A stretch of DNA of 14,730 nt. It comes from Clostridia bacterium. GTDB lineage: Bacteria > Bacillota > Clostridia > DSM-8532. Shown here piece by piece: positions 5,705-9,107 of the stretch (position 1 is the first letter of the stretch; each line of letters starts with the position of its first letter). The notes under the pieces were generated by a model. That model was given only the letters and a program-made list of their open reading frames with translations, had not been told where the DNA came from and made no database searches. A program made the translations under genes and the position numbers. The stretch is taken from the NCBI GenBank assembly GCA_026418215.1, contig JAOABT010000236.1, forward strand, positions 1-14,730, read 5' to 3'.

Positions 5705-7282
5705 TTACGCCTTACACGATAGCGCAGGCCTTTTGGCGTTTTGGCGAAGCTTCTCCAGATTCCAGACCGTATCCACCCAATCCTTATAAAAGGCTTCCTC
5801 GTGGCAAACCACCAGCACCGCACCGCGATAGGCCTGGAGGGCGTCGGCCAGAACCTGCTTGATGTCCTTGTCGAGGTGGTTGGTCGGCTCGTCAAGCACA
5901 AGAAAATTCGAAGGCTTCAGCATAAGCTGGCAAAGGCGAACCTTGGCTCTTTCTCCTCCGCTCAAGGACTTGACGGGCATCATGATATGCTCCTGGGTCA
6001 GGCCCATGAGTGCAAGCCTTTTTCGAATTTCCTGCTGGGACAGCTTAGGAAACGCTCTCCAGATAAGCTCCAAAGCTGTTTCCGGGGAGGCCTTCTTTTC
6101 CTCCTGGGCGAAGTAGCCCGTATGGACGAAGTCCCCGAAGGAAATAAGTCCGTTCCTGGCAGGGATGAGGTTAAGGAGCGTTTTCAACAGGGTTGTCTTG
6201 CCTATGCCGTTAAAGCCTGTGATGGCCACTTTTTGACCGCGCTCCAGCCTAAGATCCAGAAGAGGGAGCAGGGGCTTGTCATAGCCTACCTCGAGCTCGA
6301 GGGTTTCAAATACGATCTTGTCGGACTCCCGGGCCTCGGAAATCACTACAGCAGGCTTCTTTACAATCTGAGGCTTATCCAGTCGATCTAGCTTTTCCAA
6401 AGCCTTAAGACGGCTCTTTGCCCGCCCTGTCGTCGAGGCGCGAGCCATGTTCTTCTGAATGAAGTCCTCCATCTTGGATATCAAGGCCTGCTGACGGGTA
6501 TAGTCCTGCAGGTATTGCTCCCGGTTCTGCTCGCTCAGCTTAAGAAACTTTTCGTAGTTGCCGGGGTAGCGCTTGAGCTGGTTAAATTCAATATGCCAGA
6601 TCACATTGGTCACGCTGTTCAAAAACTTAAGATCGTGGGACACCAGAATGAAGCTTCCCGGGTAATCAGCCAAAAAGGCGGACAACCATCGAATATGCTC
6701 GGTGTCCAGGTAGTTGGTGGGCTCATCCAGTAAGAGGATATCGGGCTTCTCCAAAAGAAGCCTTGCCAGAGTGACCTTTGTCTTTTGCCCGCCGCTCAAA
6801 AGCGAAACCGGTGTGTCAAGGCCAAGCGCCAGAAGGCCCAGTCCTCCTGCCGCATCCTCGATAAGTCCGTCAATGCGGTAAAAATTGCTGCGATCCAGCT
6901 CATCCTGAAGCCAGCCTAATCTTCTCACCATGCGGTCCATGTCGTCGGATTCTGCTGTTTCCAGCTTCTCGCTGATGTCCAGGATCTCCTTTTCGAGCTT
7001 GTAAAGCGGCGCATAGGCACCCTGAAGGACCTGCCGTATGGTAAGGTCTTCAAGATAGGCAACCTGCTCGAGATAACCGGTTCTAATGTCGTTGGCCCAC
7101 AAAAGGGTGCCTTCATCCTGAAGAAGCTTTCCGGACAGAATGTTGAGGAAGGTTGTCTTTCCGGCTCCATTAGCCCCGATCAGCCCCACATGCTCGCCTT
7201 TCAATAGCCTCACTGAGATATCCTTTAAAATTGCTTTATCGCCAAAACCATGGCTTAATTTTTCAACATTTAATAAACTCAT
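5705..7282 (-). CDS. ABC-F family ATPase, YfmM-like ribosome-associated protein
   Basis: A 525-residue protein with two complete ABC ATPase domains and no membrane segment, the ABC-F (class 2) layout. Domain 1 has Walker A GANGAGKTT (about 36-44), signature LSGGQ and Walker B LLLDEPTNYLD. Domain 2 has GFNGIGKTT, LSGGE and LVLDEPTNHLD. Between them is a charged helical linker, the P-site tRNA interaction motif region (residues about 240-320). ABC-F proteins bind the ribosomal E site and act on the P-site tRNA; some protect ribosomes from antibiotics, others are housekeeping translation factors. The N-terminus MSLLNVEKLSHGFGDKAI and the length recall B. subtilis YfmM (from memory). The start is the ATG at 7282, with AGGAGGT upstream; an in-frame start 57 nt earlier has none. 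Whether it confers resistance cannot be read from sequence, but its long leader hints at inducible control. Confidence 0.92.
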   Translation of the reverse strand: MSLLNVEKLSHGFGDKAILKDISVRLLKGEHVGLIGANGAGKTTFLNILSGKLLQDEGTLLWANDIRTGYLEQVAYLEDLTIRQVLQGAYAPLYKLEKEILDISEKLETAESDDMDRMVRRLGWLQDELDRSNFYRIDGLIEDAAGGLGLLALGLDTPVSLLSGGQKTKVTLARLLLEKPDILLLDEPTNYLDTEHIRWLSAFLADYPGSFILVSHDLKFLNSVTNVIWHIEFNQLKRYPGNYEKFLKLSEQNREQYLQDYTRQQALISKMEDFIQKNMARASTTGRAKSRLKALEKLDRLDKPQIVKKPAVVISEARESDKIVFETLELEVGYDKPLLPLLDLRLERGQKVAITGFNGIGKTTLLKTLLNLIPARNGLISFGDFVHTGYFAQEEKKASPETALELIWRAFPKLSQQEIRKRLALMGLTQEHIMMPVKSLSGGERAKVRLCQLMLKPSNFLVLDEPTNHLDKDIKQVLADALQAYRGAVLVVCHEEAFYKDWVDTVWNLEKLRQNAKRPALSCKA

Positions 7283-7345
7283 TTTTATGACCTCCTGATT
7301 AAGGGCCAAACGGCCCGTTTTAAGCTGTAAAATTGCCAAAACCGC

Positions 7346-7380
7346 AAAAAAAGGGAAGAGGATACAAGATCCTCTTCCCT
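7346..7380 (-). terminator. Strong terminator inside the ABC-F leader
   Basis: On the minus strand AGGGAAGAGGAT (7380-7369), loop CTTGT and ATCCTCTTCCCT (7363-7352) form a perfect 12-bp stem followed by a T-run (7351-7346). It stands 63 nt before the ABC-F start codon and in the sense direction of the gene, so as it stands it would prevent expression unless antitermination occurs. No gene ends between it and the promoter. Confidence 0.85.
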
Positions 7381-7423
7381 AAAAAGCCCATGATACAACG
7401 ACCGTGTTATTTCATTTTTGGGC
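7381..7423 (-). terminator. Weak second hairpin with U-tract in the ABC-F leader
   Basis: On the minus strand GCCCA (7423-7419) can pair with TGGGC (7390-7386), followed directly by TTTTT (7385-7381). The stem is only 5 bp and the loop is 28 nt, so it is weak alone. Its 5' arm overlaps the TTGCCCAAAA segment that can pair further downstream, so it could be part of a switch. Confidence 0.35.
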
Positions 7424-7426
7424 AAC

Positions 7427-7552
7427 AAAAAAGAGTCCTATTTAATCCTAAACGCTATCTTCTATGCACTTGAGAGACCTAAAAAAGGGCAGACTACCCC
7501 TTCGTTACGGTCTATCGAGTGTCAGAACAGCGTTTAGTTTCATTTACGACTC
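7427..7552 (-). terminator. Long imperfect stem-loop ending in U6 in the ABC-F leader
   Basis: On the minus strand a series of paired blocks nests in register: GAGTC (7552-7548) with GACTC (7437-7433); CTAAACGCT (7537-7529) with AGCGTTTAG (7456-7448), 9 bp; CACT with AGTG; AGACC with GGTCT; and AAGGG with CCCTT at the tip. The internal loop between the first two blocks is symmetrical, 10 by 10 nt. TTTTTT (7432-7427) follows. Most of the candidate leader peptide lies in the 5' arm, so translation would disrupt this stem. Confidence 0.5.
7505..7543 (-). CDS. Candidate leader peptide MKLNAVLTLDRP
   Basis: A 12-codon frame, ATG (7543-7541) to TAA (7507-7505), in the ABC-F leader. AAGGAG lies upstream on the minus strand but with a 13-nt gap to the ATG, longer than ideal. 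The codons for LNA lie in the CTAAACGCT arm of the long stem. Short leader peptides that sense stalled ribosomes are established for several antibiotic-responsive ABC-F genes and for erm genes. I do not recognise this peptide sequence, and it may be untranslated. Confidence 0.4.
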   Translation of the reverse strand: MKLNAVLTLDRP

Positions 7553-7598
7553 ACTTCTCCTTAAGCAGTATAAGCTTAGTATGGCAATTTACCTTAAT

Positions 7599-7627
7599 AT
7601 TATATGCCTTTTTTTGTCAAGCGGCAA
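7599..7627 (-). promoter_or_regulatory. Promoter of the ABC-F leader
   Basis: On the minus strand TTGCCG (7627-7622) and TATAAT (7604-7599) are separated by 17 bp; transcription would start near 7592. A perfect TTGACA lies inside the spacer but only 10 bp from the TATAAT, so it is unlikely to be the -35. The promoter starts only about 20 nt after the stop of the upstream minus-strand gene, so the ABC-F gene is an independent unit. Confidence 0.65.
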
Positions 7628-7646: not shown

Positions 7647-9107
7647 CTATTTCCTAAGCAATCCTTTACCGTGGGACTCTTTCAAGGCCTCGAGCTTTTC
7701 AAAGCCCAGGCTCGCAAGTGTAAAAACAGCGATCATGGCGAAGTACCGGTACCTTGGCTGAACCTCAACGAGAATATGGGACAAAAAATAGCCGCCAAAG
7801 TAGAGCTGGATAAGAAGGAGCAGAGGCAGGACTTCCTTGTCTTTAAGACGGCATAAGCTGCCTGCCGCCATTAAGAGGAATGCGAATAAATAGAACACCT
7901 TCTCCACATGGAGTCCCTGATGGAGCAAGGCTTCAAAGGGGATTTGAAGTCCCATGATGCCGATGGCCTTGGGCCTTTTTGTAAAGGTGAAGCCCGTGTT
8001 TTCTGATTTGGTCCACAAAAGAAGCTCCTTCTTGATTGCCAGGTAAAAAAGTTTTGCACTGCCCACAGAGACCCTCTTTTTAATCATGGCCGCCGCAAGC
8101 CGGTCTCTTTCTTCAATATCCTTCTGGTACATTAAAAGATTCTGGTCTTTAACGTTAAATTGACCATTTGAATCATGGTTAAGCCCCACGACAAATTTCC
8201 ATAGAGGGAAGGTGTTTTCAAGCCCTTTTGGATTGACACCGAGCCATGCGGCGGACTTGGACAGCAGTGTCCAGCAAAGAATGAAAACGAGGCAATAGCT
8301 AAGGCCTGCTTTCAGATAGCTGAGAAGACGCTTTTTATTCTTAAATGATTGAAAAATGCCTATGGCTGTTAAGAAAAGCACAGCGGCCACAGGAATGATA
8401 CCCATCAGACGCAGCCCATTGCCGAGGACGGCAATAAAAGCAGACAAAAGAACATAAGGGTAGGATTTAAGGCCCTTTTTGGCAAATAGCCAGGCTGAAA
8501 GAAAAAAGAGAAAATCAGCACTGTGCTGGTTGGTAAGGACAGGAGCCAGAAGATAGGGAGCAGGGTAAAAAAGGTACAATAAAGCCGATGCGCGGGCTGC
8601 TTTTTCAGTGGCGAATTCCCGGGCCATCAAATAAACCAGGAGATTGGTGCCAGCCATAAAGAGGCAGTTGATCGTAATGAGCGGCGTAAGACCGATGCCG
8701 AAAAGCTTCATGATGCCGGCGTAAAACAGCACAATACCCGATTGGTTGGCCCAAACCGAGAAATAGCACCAGGATTGAAACGTGTAATCACCTGCAGCAG
8801 CCATTTTTGCAGCGTCATAAAATAGAAGGAAATCGGAGATAGGCTTGGTCTCAACAACCAGTGAAAAAATCAGCTTAGCTGCAAAAGCGAGGAAAAAAAT
8901 CATAACTGAGAAGCCTAAGGGGGTGAGGCGAGCTCTGACACAAACAATGACCAGCGCCACGACTGCTGTAATGCAAAGGGAAAGAAGGCTATAGCGCACC
9001 AGCCCCGGAATGAAATTGAGGACGAGGATGAATAATCCCGAAGCCGCTGTAAAAAGGATTACCAGCTTTATTAACAAATTACTCTTTAGGCCTGTTTTAT
9101 CACACAT
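7647..9107 (-). CDS. Multi-membrane GT-C-type glycosyltransferase-like protein
   Basis: A 486-residue protein with roughly a dozen hydrophobic helices. The first extracytoplasmic loop after two to three helices contains KPISDFLLFYDAAKMAAAGD, with acidic residue D near F-Y, the place where GT-C enzymes (PMT_2/GT39 and relatives) keep a catalytic aspartate. Later come RASALLYLFYPAPYLLAPVL and a C-terminal VEVQPRYRYFAMIAVFTLAS. Such enzymes transfer sugars from polyprenyl-phosphate donors on the outer face of the membrane to proteins, lipids or wall polymers. Donor and acceptor are unknown. The ATG at 9107 has no good Shine-Dalgarno sequence; a TTG at codon 11 preceded by AAAGAG is an alternative. 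It diverges from the chemoreceptor gene, with 128 nt between the two start codons. I see no terminator before the ABC-F promoter, so read-through is possible. Confidence 0.7.
   Translation of the reverse strand: MCDKTGLKSNLLIKLVILFTAASGLFILVLNFIPGLVRYSLLSLCITAVVALVIVCVRARLTPLGFSVMIFFLAFAAKLIFSLVVETKPISDFLLFYDAAKMAAAGDYTFQSWCYFSVWANQSGIVLFYAGIMKLFGIGLTPLITINCLFMAGTNLLVYLMAREFATEKAARASALLYLFYPAPYLLAPVLTNQHSADFLFFLSAWLFAKKGLKSYPYVLLSAFIAVLGNGLRLMGIIPVAAVLFLTAIGIFQSFKNKKRLLSYLKAGLSYCLVFILCWTLLSKSAAWLGVNPKGLENTFPLWKFVVGLNHDSNGQFNVKDQNLLMYQKDIEERDRLAAAMIKKRVSVGSAKLFYLAIKKELLLWTKSENTGFTFTKRPKAIGIMGLQIPFEALLHQGLHVEKVFYLFAFLLMAAGSLCRLKDKEVLPLLLLIQLYFGGYFLSHILVEVQPRYRYFAMIAVFTLASLGFEKLEALKESHGKGLLRK

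Follow-up and report, generated by a model that had tools for sequence, protein, structure and literature searches.

The stretch of DNA considered here, termed the window, comprises 14,730 nucleotides of a contig assigned to a Clostridia bacterium, and the ABC-F gene and leader features described below lie on its minus strand. An ABC-F ATPase gene of 525 aa, which belongs to a divergent group with a short inter-domain linker, occupies positions 7282-5705, with its ATG at 7282 and an AGGAGG Shine-Dalgarno sequence at 7296-7291. A small GGGCC/GGCCC hairpin is located at 7316-7303, just ahead of this Shine-Dalgarno sequence. The preceding gene, which ends at 7647, has the same orientation, and the leader of the ABC-F gene is headed by a promoter-like site constructed of a -35 element TTGCCG (7627-7622), a spacer of 17 and a -10 element TATAAT (7604-7599). 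This site, which had been proposed as a promoter from the letters alone, is present and matches the consensus at 10/12 positions, but taken by itself it stands at chance level, with four such sites in the region against 3.5 expected per shuffle. A site of at least 10/12 was observed directly upstream of the leader in eight of 14 relatives (G835, which offers too little upstream DNA, was set aside), while the best promoter-like site in the remaining six was no better than in shuffled sequence.

The leader harbors a short upstream open reading frame (uORF) of 12 codons at 7543-7505, MKLNAVLTLDRP followed by TAA, which is preceded by the Shine-Dalgarno sequence AAGGAG at 7562-7557 and sits in the 5' arm of a long hairpin. 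Four helices make up this hairpin. P1 is formed at its base by GAGTC (7552-7548) and GACTC (7437-7433), and the U-run of the long hairpin finds a further partner in the 3' part of the uORF Shine-Dalgarno sequence. P2 joins CTAAACGCT (7537-7529) with AGCGTTTAG (7456-7448), and P3 joins AGACC (7513-7509) with GGTCT (7479-7475), both being indicated by folding and covariation, while P4 is a small hairpin AAGGGG..CCC directly after the uORF stop, which is followed by U6 (7502-7481). The 3' arm of the long hairpin with its own U6 (AGGACTCTTTTTT, 7439-7427) is predicted to serve as a first terminator when paired upstream and as an antiterminator when free. Downstream, folding of the window gives an intervening hairpin, GCCC..GGGC with U5, at 7423-7381, which would become the apex of the antiterminator, and then a strong intrinsic terminator at 7380-7346 with the 5' arm AGGGAAGAGG, a perfect stem of 12 bp, a loop of 5 and a U-run, for which folding gives -19.2 kcal/mol. 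The minimum free energy of the long hairpin (7562-7427) is -52.6 kcal/mol against a shuffled mean of -30.0 (z -6.6), with none of 500 shuffles equally stable, and the whole leader from 7592 to 7346 is likewise more stable than shuffled sequence (z -6.9). The very strong terminator, the longer stem-loop ending in U6 and the short frame in its 5' arm, all named in the original prediction, are thus borne out.

The window protein reaches a best identity of only 54% to its homologues in genomes of its class and phylum. When the DNA upstream of such genes was read at 18 loci, the window included, the same leader was recognized at two further loci, G328 and G387, and the three leaders share a common order, (G)GAG..GAGTC, a 12-codon frame with TAA, GGG..GCCCTTTTTT, GACTCTTTTTT and a GGAAAGAGG terminator. 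A covariance model built from these three led to 13 more, 12 of them in the G387 family and the remaining one in that of G328. Leaders are accordingly found in two of 22 genomes of the G328 family, G328 itself counted. In the G387 family, 13 of 194 genomes gave matches, a figure which counts G387 and a partial, weak match (G856, model positions 28-109, 30 bits) that was later dropped. Since one genome, G827, carries two copies (G827a and G827b), the set amounts to 16 leaders, three of them the model's own, from which G856 and reverse-strand echoes of G835 and G387 were left out.

Outside these families the element was scarcely encountered. A class-wide run of a second model over 381 genomes, with stricter filtering at the cost of weak matches, returned only the original three, from which it follows that the element is concentrated in the G387 family. 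Among 70 sources searched with the model, only the three known leaders scored well, and four matches at E 0.35-0.78 (16-17 bits) were treated as noise. The exact pattern CCCT5-n-GACTCT5 occurs at 17 places in 16 of 391 class genomes, and together with the 5' arm it occurs in only three genomes (window, G328 and G387); the other 14 places were rejected as leaders because model R2 matches none of them. The same pattern in 83 viral stretches was also discarded, seven passing a loose expression and none of the 83 being matched by model R2. No copy of the ABC-F was found in the viral contigs scanned, and the plasmid records contained no leader DNA and ABC-F proteins only at 45-53% identity. The name given to P0202, a protein 61% identical to that of G821, places it on a plasmid of Haloimpatiens sp. 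FM7330. A distant ABC-F (44% identical) of Clostridia bacterium UC5.1-1E11, at L014:2580-3000, is preceded by a different leader with a frame MHIYLTDQPRRRI.. and three hairpins with T-runs, which the models do not match.

The window comes from a fragmented genome bin with 82.6% completeness and 6.28% contamination. A DNA similarity search for the leader in 61 genomes, the host's own and 60 relatives, recovered the window alone, and the neighbouring gene at 678-1361 has no relative in seven genomes of the genus. Because of these two absences, the window contig (1-14730) may be accessory, recently acquired or misbinned.

In a sequence-based alignment of the 16 leaders, a structure of 32 pairs is formed in 87.0% of cells. 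Fourteen pairs have changed on both sides, and the cells with double changes number 44 against 17.5 in shuffles. The covariation score of 0.305 compares with 0.170 in shuffled alignments, none of 500 being as high, and falls to at most 0.141 when the structure is slid by 1-3 columns. The helix corresponding to P2 contributes changes on both sides in ten of its 12 pairs. These values carry a bias, as the model that found 13 of the 16 leaders was itself built on a structure from three sequences, and G835 and G387 are near copies. The uORF has 12 codons in 14 of the 16 leaders (14 in G792 and nine in G834), the positions of its Shine-Dalgarno sequence, start and TAA are kept, and indels fall outside the uORF with none inside it. 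GG..CCC of P4 and at least five T of its run are invariant. Moreover, an intrinsic terminator hairpin of -11 kcal/mol or better precedes the gene in 15 of the 16 leaders, and the last terminator of these 15 carries a 5' arm of the GG(A)AAGAGG type, with the variants GGAAAGGGG in G867 and AAGAAAGAGG in G815. The exception in both respects is G799, which lacks the GACTC-T6 end and a good terminator. The distance from the first U-run to the last terminator varies among the leaders. Hairpins and short frame are therefore both retained in relatives, with covariation, and the leader is a real, evolutionarily conserved RNA element in front of ABC-F genes.

The loop of P4 around AGTCTG (7502-7481) is unpaired yet kept in most of the 16 leaders. 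Pairing of this loop with the GACTC arm was considered and dropped, since the loop stays constant where the arm differs, as in G867 and G827b; a role in factor binding or pausing is possible. This largely conserved and unexplained loop is one reason to consider a leader that binds a protein or ligand in the manner of a riboswitch, with the short frame merely incidental, and the lack of a protein-level signal in the uORF, described below, would suit such a leader too. An incidental frame would, on the other hand, hardly be expected to keep its Shine-Dalgarno sequence, start and TAA in place with indels only outside it. In addition, the window and six relative loci gave no match to Rfam 15 at the gathering threshold, the weak matches below it being biologically unlikely and looking like chance. 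A riboswitch-like leader is accordingly considered very unlikely.

In all 16 cases the first same-strand ORF behind the leader, in a scan limited to ORFs of 100 aa or more, starts 111-381 nt past the core, and it encodes an ABC-F protein in 14 and an MFS protein in two. Thirteen of these ABC-F proteins are of the window's kind, 11 placed by a tree and two (G788 and G817) by partial sequences, while that of G834 belongs to another group and is 36% identical to the window protein. The two MFS proteins match Pfam MFS_1 and MFS_3 and no NCBIfam family at E 1e-60 or better. A search of 121 G387-family genomes with the G821 protein (cut-off 1e-170) gave nine matches at 55% identity or above and at least 640 bits and, after a gap, 12 matches at 50-52% identity and at most 573 bits. 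The model found the leader at all nine of the divergent-group ABC-F genes and at none of the 12 other homologues. Several loci show peculiarities of their own. G834 (L219:3713-4122) bears two attenuators in tandem before its ABC-F gene, scoring 112 and 48 bits, and the weaker second one has seemingly lost the CCC-T6 element. Intact leaders also precede an ABC-F frame with an in-frame stop after codon 408 in G387 (L222:1849-3072) and one with a frame break in G817 (L214:2302-3186), by decay or by sequencing error.

This association also bears on the plainest explanation of the locus, namely that several terminators shield the ABC-F gene from upstream transcription without regulating it. The upstream gene does run toward the ABC-F gene and ends close by, as insulation would call for. 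The promoter-like site, however, lies between that gene and the hairpins, and structure and gene association alike are conserved in other families, so that mere insulation is regarded as extremely improbable.

The window protein consists of two ABC domains with an ABC_tran_Xtn linker, and its best matches among solved structures are EttA, YbiT, YheS and PoxtA. In alignment A4, compared by eye, its linker does not exceed those of leaderless homologues in length, which indicates that it does not possess the long ARD of VmlR or Vga. Some AREs, for example PoxtA, have a short linker as well. The NCBIfam model ribo_prot_ABC_F (NF000355) gives the window protein 371 bits, below the cut-off of 380, which several leader-bearing relatives exceed, namely G867 (394), G821 (403) and G827b (384) of the window's kind and also G834 (481). 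The window protein lies far below the cut-off of the named ARE models, and it is the leader that suggests a resistance role for this ABC-F. Nine ABC-F homologues (P0002-P0012), 912-916 residues long and sharing 48-51% identity with the window protein, obtain bit scores above those of single-length homologues, which suggests fused or repeated ABC-F units.

In a first tree, calculated without the Bacillales and other loci L015-L030 and the interrupted L034, the window protein and that of G328 fall outside a widespread leaderless clade (57 rows, 99/99), although the tool warned of long branches meeting. A second tree omitted G788 (contig end), G817 (interrupted), G834 and the MFS genes, and it held the first 408 residues of G387 and 27 of the 57 leaderless rows. 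In it, one group (97/60) unites ten leader-bearing proteins with eight metagenome relatives, the leaderless proteins make up a separate one (27 rows, 100/100), and the window protein, together with the metagenome proteins P0007, P0013, P0014 and P0016, adjoins the leaderless clade (92/82). Owing to the position of this branch, the leader-bearing proteins are not established as one clade. The window protein is 61% and 59% identical to P0007 and P0013, respectively, and 50-56% identical to other leader-bearing proteins against 50-53% to leaderless ones. The widespread leaderless clade is what we take to be the YfmM type. The original prediction had called the window gene YfmM-type, a designation that has to be given up on this reading, as the protein stands outside that clade in both trees (99/99 and 100/100).

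The arrangement of the hairpins points to a switch. The free 3' arm CUCUUUUUU is complementary to the 5' arm of the last terminator, and their pairing is predicted at -6.3 to -15.8 kcal/mol over the 16 leaders. With the arms chosen by motif, this pairing beats all of 10 unrelated terminator-like hairpins, the only controls of this kind, in 12 of 15 leaders (G799 left out), the exceptions being G328, G827a and G834. Against shuffles of the same arm it is exceptional (at most 0.05 of shuffles as good) in only five of 16 leaders, in a test whose automated selection took the wrong terminator for G328; the small number is explained by the purine-rich arms, which pair with U-runs anyway. Pairing with the leader's own arm was no better than with the arms of other leaders, and hence no leader-specific covariation is seen for the antiterminator step.

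The effect of a ribosome was simulated by folding under constraint, with each transcript cut off in the loop of the last terminator; this covered 14 leaders, without G834 and G799. With no ribosome, the antiterminator holds at most 1.0 expected pairs in 12 of the 14, G821 and G817 already standing at 4.5 and 3.4. A footprint at codon 1 abolishes P1 in all 14, brings the antiterminator to at least 4.4 pairs in 13 and raises it by at least four expected pairs in 12; G817 (to 4.4) and G865 (to 1.1) hardly switch. With the footprint at codon 3, at least five antiterminator pairs form in 10 of the 14 leaders, at codon 5 at least 4.9 pairs in only four, while a footprint at codon 12 leaves the antiterminator unchanged from the ribosome-free state in every one of the 14. 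The window leader frees its antiterminator with a footprint at any of codons 1, 3, 5, 7 and 9. The design is therefore predicted to respond to arrest early in the uORF, given that footprints at codons 1 and 3 switch most leaders and one at codon 12 switches none. Since the antiterminator (-11 to -12 kcal/mol) is less stable than the strong terminator, which reaches -19 kcal/mol in the window, the switch is predicted to be kinetic.

From these foldings and the conservation, we consider it likely that the leader is a ribosome-controlled transcription attenuator of the vmlR-like kind, triggered by arrest on the first uORF codons, and the gene is probably turned on only when ribosomes get stuck near the uORF start. 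RNA polymerase would start near 7592 and then copy the uORF. With no ribosome, or once all 12 codons were translated and the ribosome gone, one long hairpin (P1-P4) would form, its base made of the uORF Shine-Dalgarno/GAGUC paired with GACUCU6; it would either end transcription at U6 or occupy the GACUCU6 arm so that the terminator at 7380-7346 could form. A ribosome arrested on the first codons would instead cover the 5' base of the hairpin, so that CUCUUUUUU could pair with the 5' arm of the strong terminator, GGGAAGAG, and let transcription reach the ABC-F gene. The ABC-F protein, a ribosome-acting ATPase with a presumed protective function, would then relieve the arrest. By analogy with known leaders, the CCCU6 hairpin (P4) probably pauses the polymerase so that the ribosome catches up. 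The terminators that the original prediction had described as stacked are thus present, while simple stacking does not describe them, since an antiterminator of the last can be provided by the 3' arm of the first.

Two other ways of arresting the ribosome deserve attention. In the first, as in the msrD/erm leaders, stalling at an inner or the last codon depends on the nascent uORF peptide together with a macrolide, phenicol or oxazolidinone. Some features agree with it, in that two leaders sit before MFS proteins, the window leader frees its antiterminator with footprints as far as codon 9, and certain residues recur among the 13 distinct uORFs, with V or I at position 6 in all 13, L11 in 11 and C2, L7 and A12 in ten each. 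The codons themselves tell against it. In the 13 sequences (G387, which has the same uORF as G835, was left out with G792 and G834), entropies at codon positions 1, 2 and 3 are 1.11, 0.94 and 0.86, and amino acids differ by 0.643 in the true frame, a value between the 0.617 of frame +1 and the 0.704 of frame +2. Position 3 is thus no more variable than positions 1 or 2, and these 13 uORFs show no sign of protein-level selection. Furthermore, the window uORF ends in DRP rather than xLA, residues that changed along with the pairing 3' arm, which argues for an RNA constraint, and a codon-5 footprint frees the antiterminator in only the four of 14 leaders mentioned above. With no codon-level signal, peptide-specific stalling was dropped as the main reading and is rated unlikely. 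The missing peptide constraint agrees with drugs that halt ribosomes largely irrespective of the sequence. The stall in a leader peptide originally proposed consequently survives as a ribosome-controlled attenuator supported by folding; its peptide-specific form does not, arrest at the first codons being predicted in most relatives.

The second way is amino-acid attenuation, in which too little charged tRNA, for cysteine at codon 2, would halt the ribosome and thereby induce the gene. TGT is codon 2 in ten of the 13 distinct uORFs, and the folding needs a stall at codons 1-3, just where such a codon would act. Yet the window, G328 and G788 have no cysteine codon at position 2, a single codon would be a weak sensor, and the genes that follow encode ABC-F and MFS proteins, all of which makes this alternative highly improbable. 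If the preferred attenuator responds to drugs, the early position of the predicted arrest would make lincosamides, pleuromutilins and streptogramin A the most likely inducers.

Among known systems, the vmlR leader of Bacillus subtilis closely resembles the window leader in its logic. As described in PMC9226507, arrest on a 3-codon uORF, MIN, prevents an anti-antiterminator, in combination with a NusG-dependent pause and an intrinsic terminator. On the proposed reading both leaders share a uORF inside an anti-antiterminator hairpin, a T-rich pause hairpin, an antiterminator that competes with an intrinsic terminator and a trigger by arrest at the beginning of the uORF, a logic which was tested for vmlR and is predicted by folding here. 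In contrast with the three codons of vmlR, the window uORF has 12 codons in the 5' arm of the hairpin, and the long hairpin itself ends in U6. No homology between the two is established, and the window protein obtains only 184 bits to the ExpZ (VmlR) chain 6ha8. The cplR leader of Clostridia, by the account of its regulation in PMC10201436, likewise precedes a clostridial ABC-F gene and carries a short uORF, MR[I/M], with premature termination relieved by lincomycin and retapamulin, whereas for the window premature termination is predicted. It differs from the window leader in its uORF of three codons and in a terminator that sequesters the cplR Shine-Dalgarno sequence, and the window protein scores 230 against a cut-off of 780 for NCBIfam CplR.

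As proposed for leaders of the window type, the msrD and mef/mel leaders place ABC-F and efflux genes under leader-peptide attenuation; the stalling that their descriptions report is macrolide-specific (PMC10314930, PMC4335068), whereas no peptide-level conservation was seen in leaders of the window type. Predicted attenuators before ABC genes, the ABC-leaders, were also part of a 2010 survey of premature terminators (PMC2965389), and the five displayed there belong to other taxa, the distinction from the window leader resting on those five. No 12-codon leader of this kind is described in the portions of the literature covered, PMC10219788 and PMC6723617 included, with supplements, preprints and subscription papers outside its scope. 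As far as this literature and Rfam 15 were searched, the leader, a probable vmlR-like attenuator whose conserved RNA fold, gene partners and host range are its own, has so far been undescribed.

In a broader perspective, the leader may represent a portable clostridial family of RNA attenuators that sense early ribosome arrest irrespective of the peptide, tied to the short-linker ABC-F group and reused, once in tandem, before a different ABC-F gene and before MFS exporters, a proposal to which we give about an even chance. The finding ties an uncharacterised ABC-F group to a resistance-type switch and predicts the compounds that would turn this switch on. Meanwhile, the system offers a test of whether short-linker ABC-F proteins can protect ribosomes, and the covariance model marks other clostridial genes as part of a response to arrested ribosomes. 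If the family is indeed portable, it would provide a probe for new inducible ribosome-protection and efflux genes.
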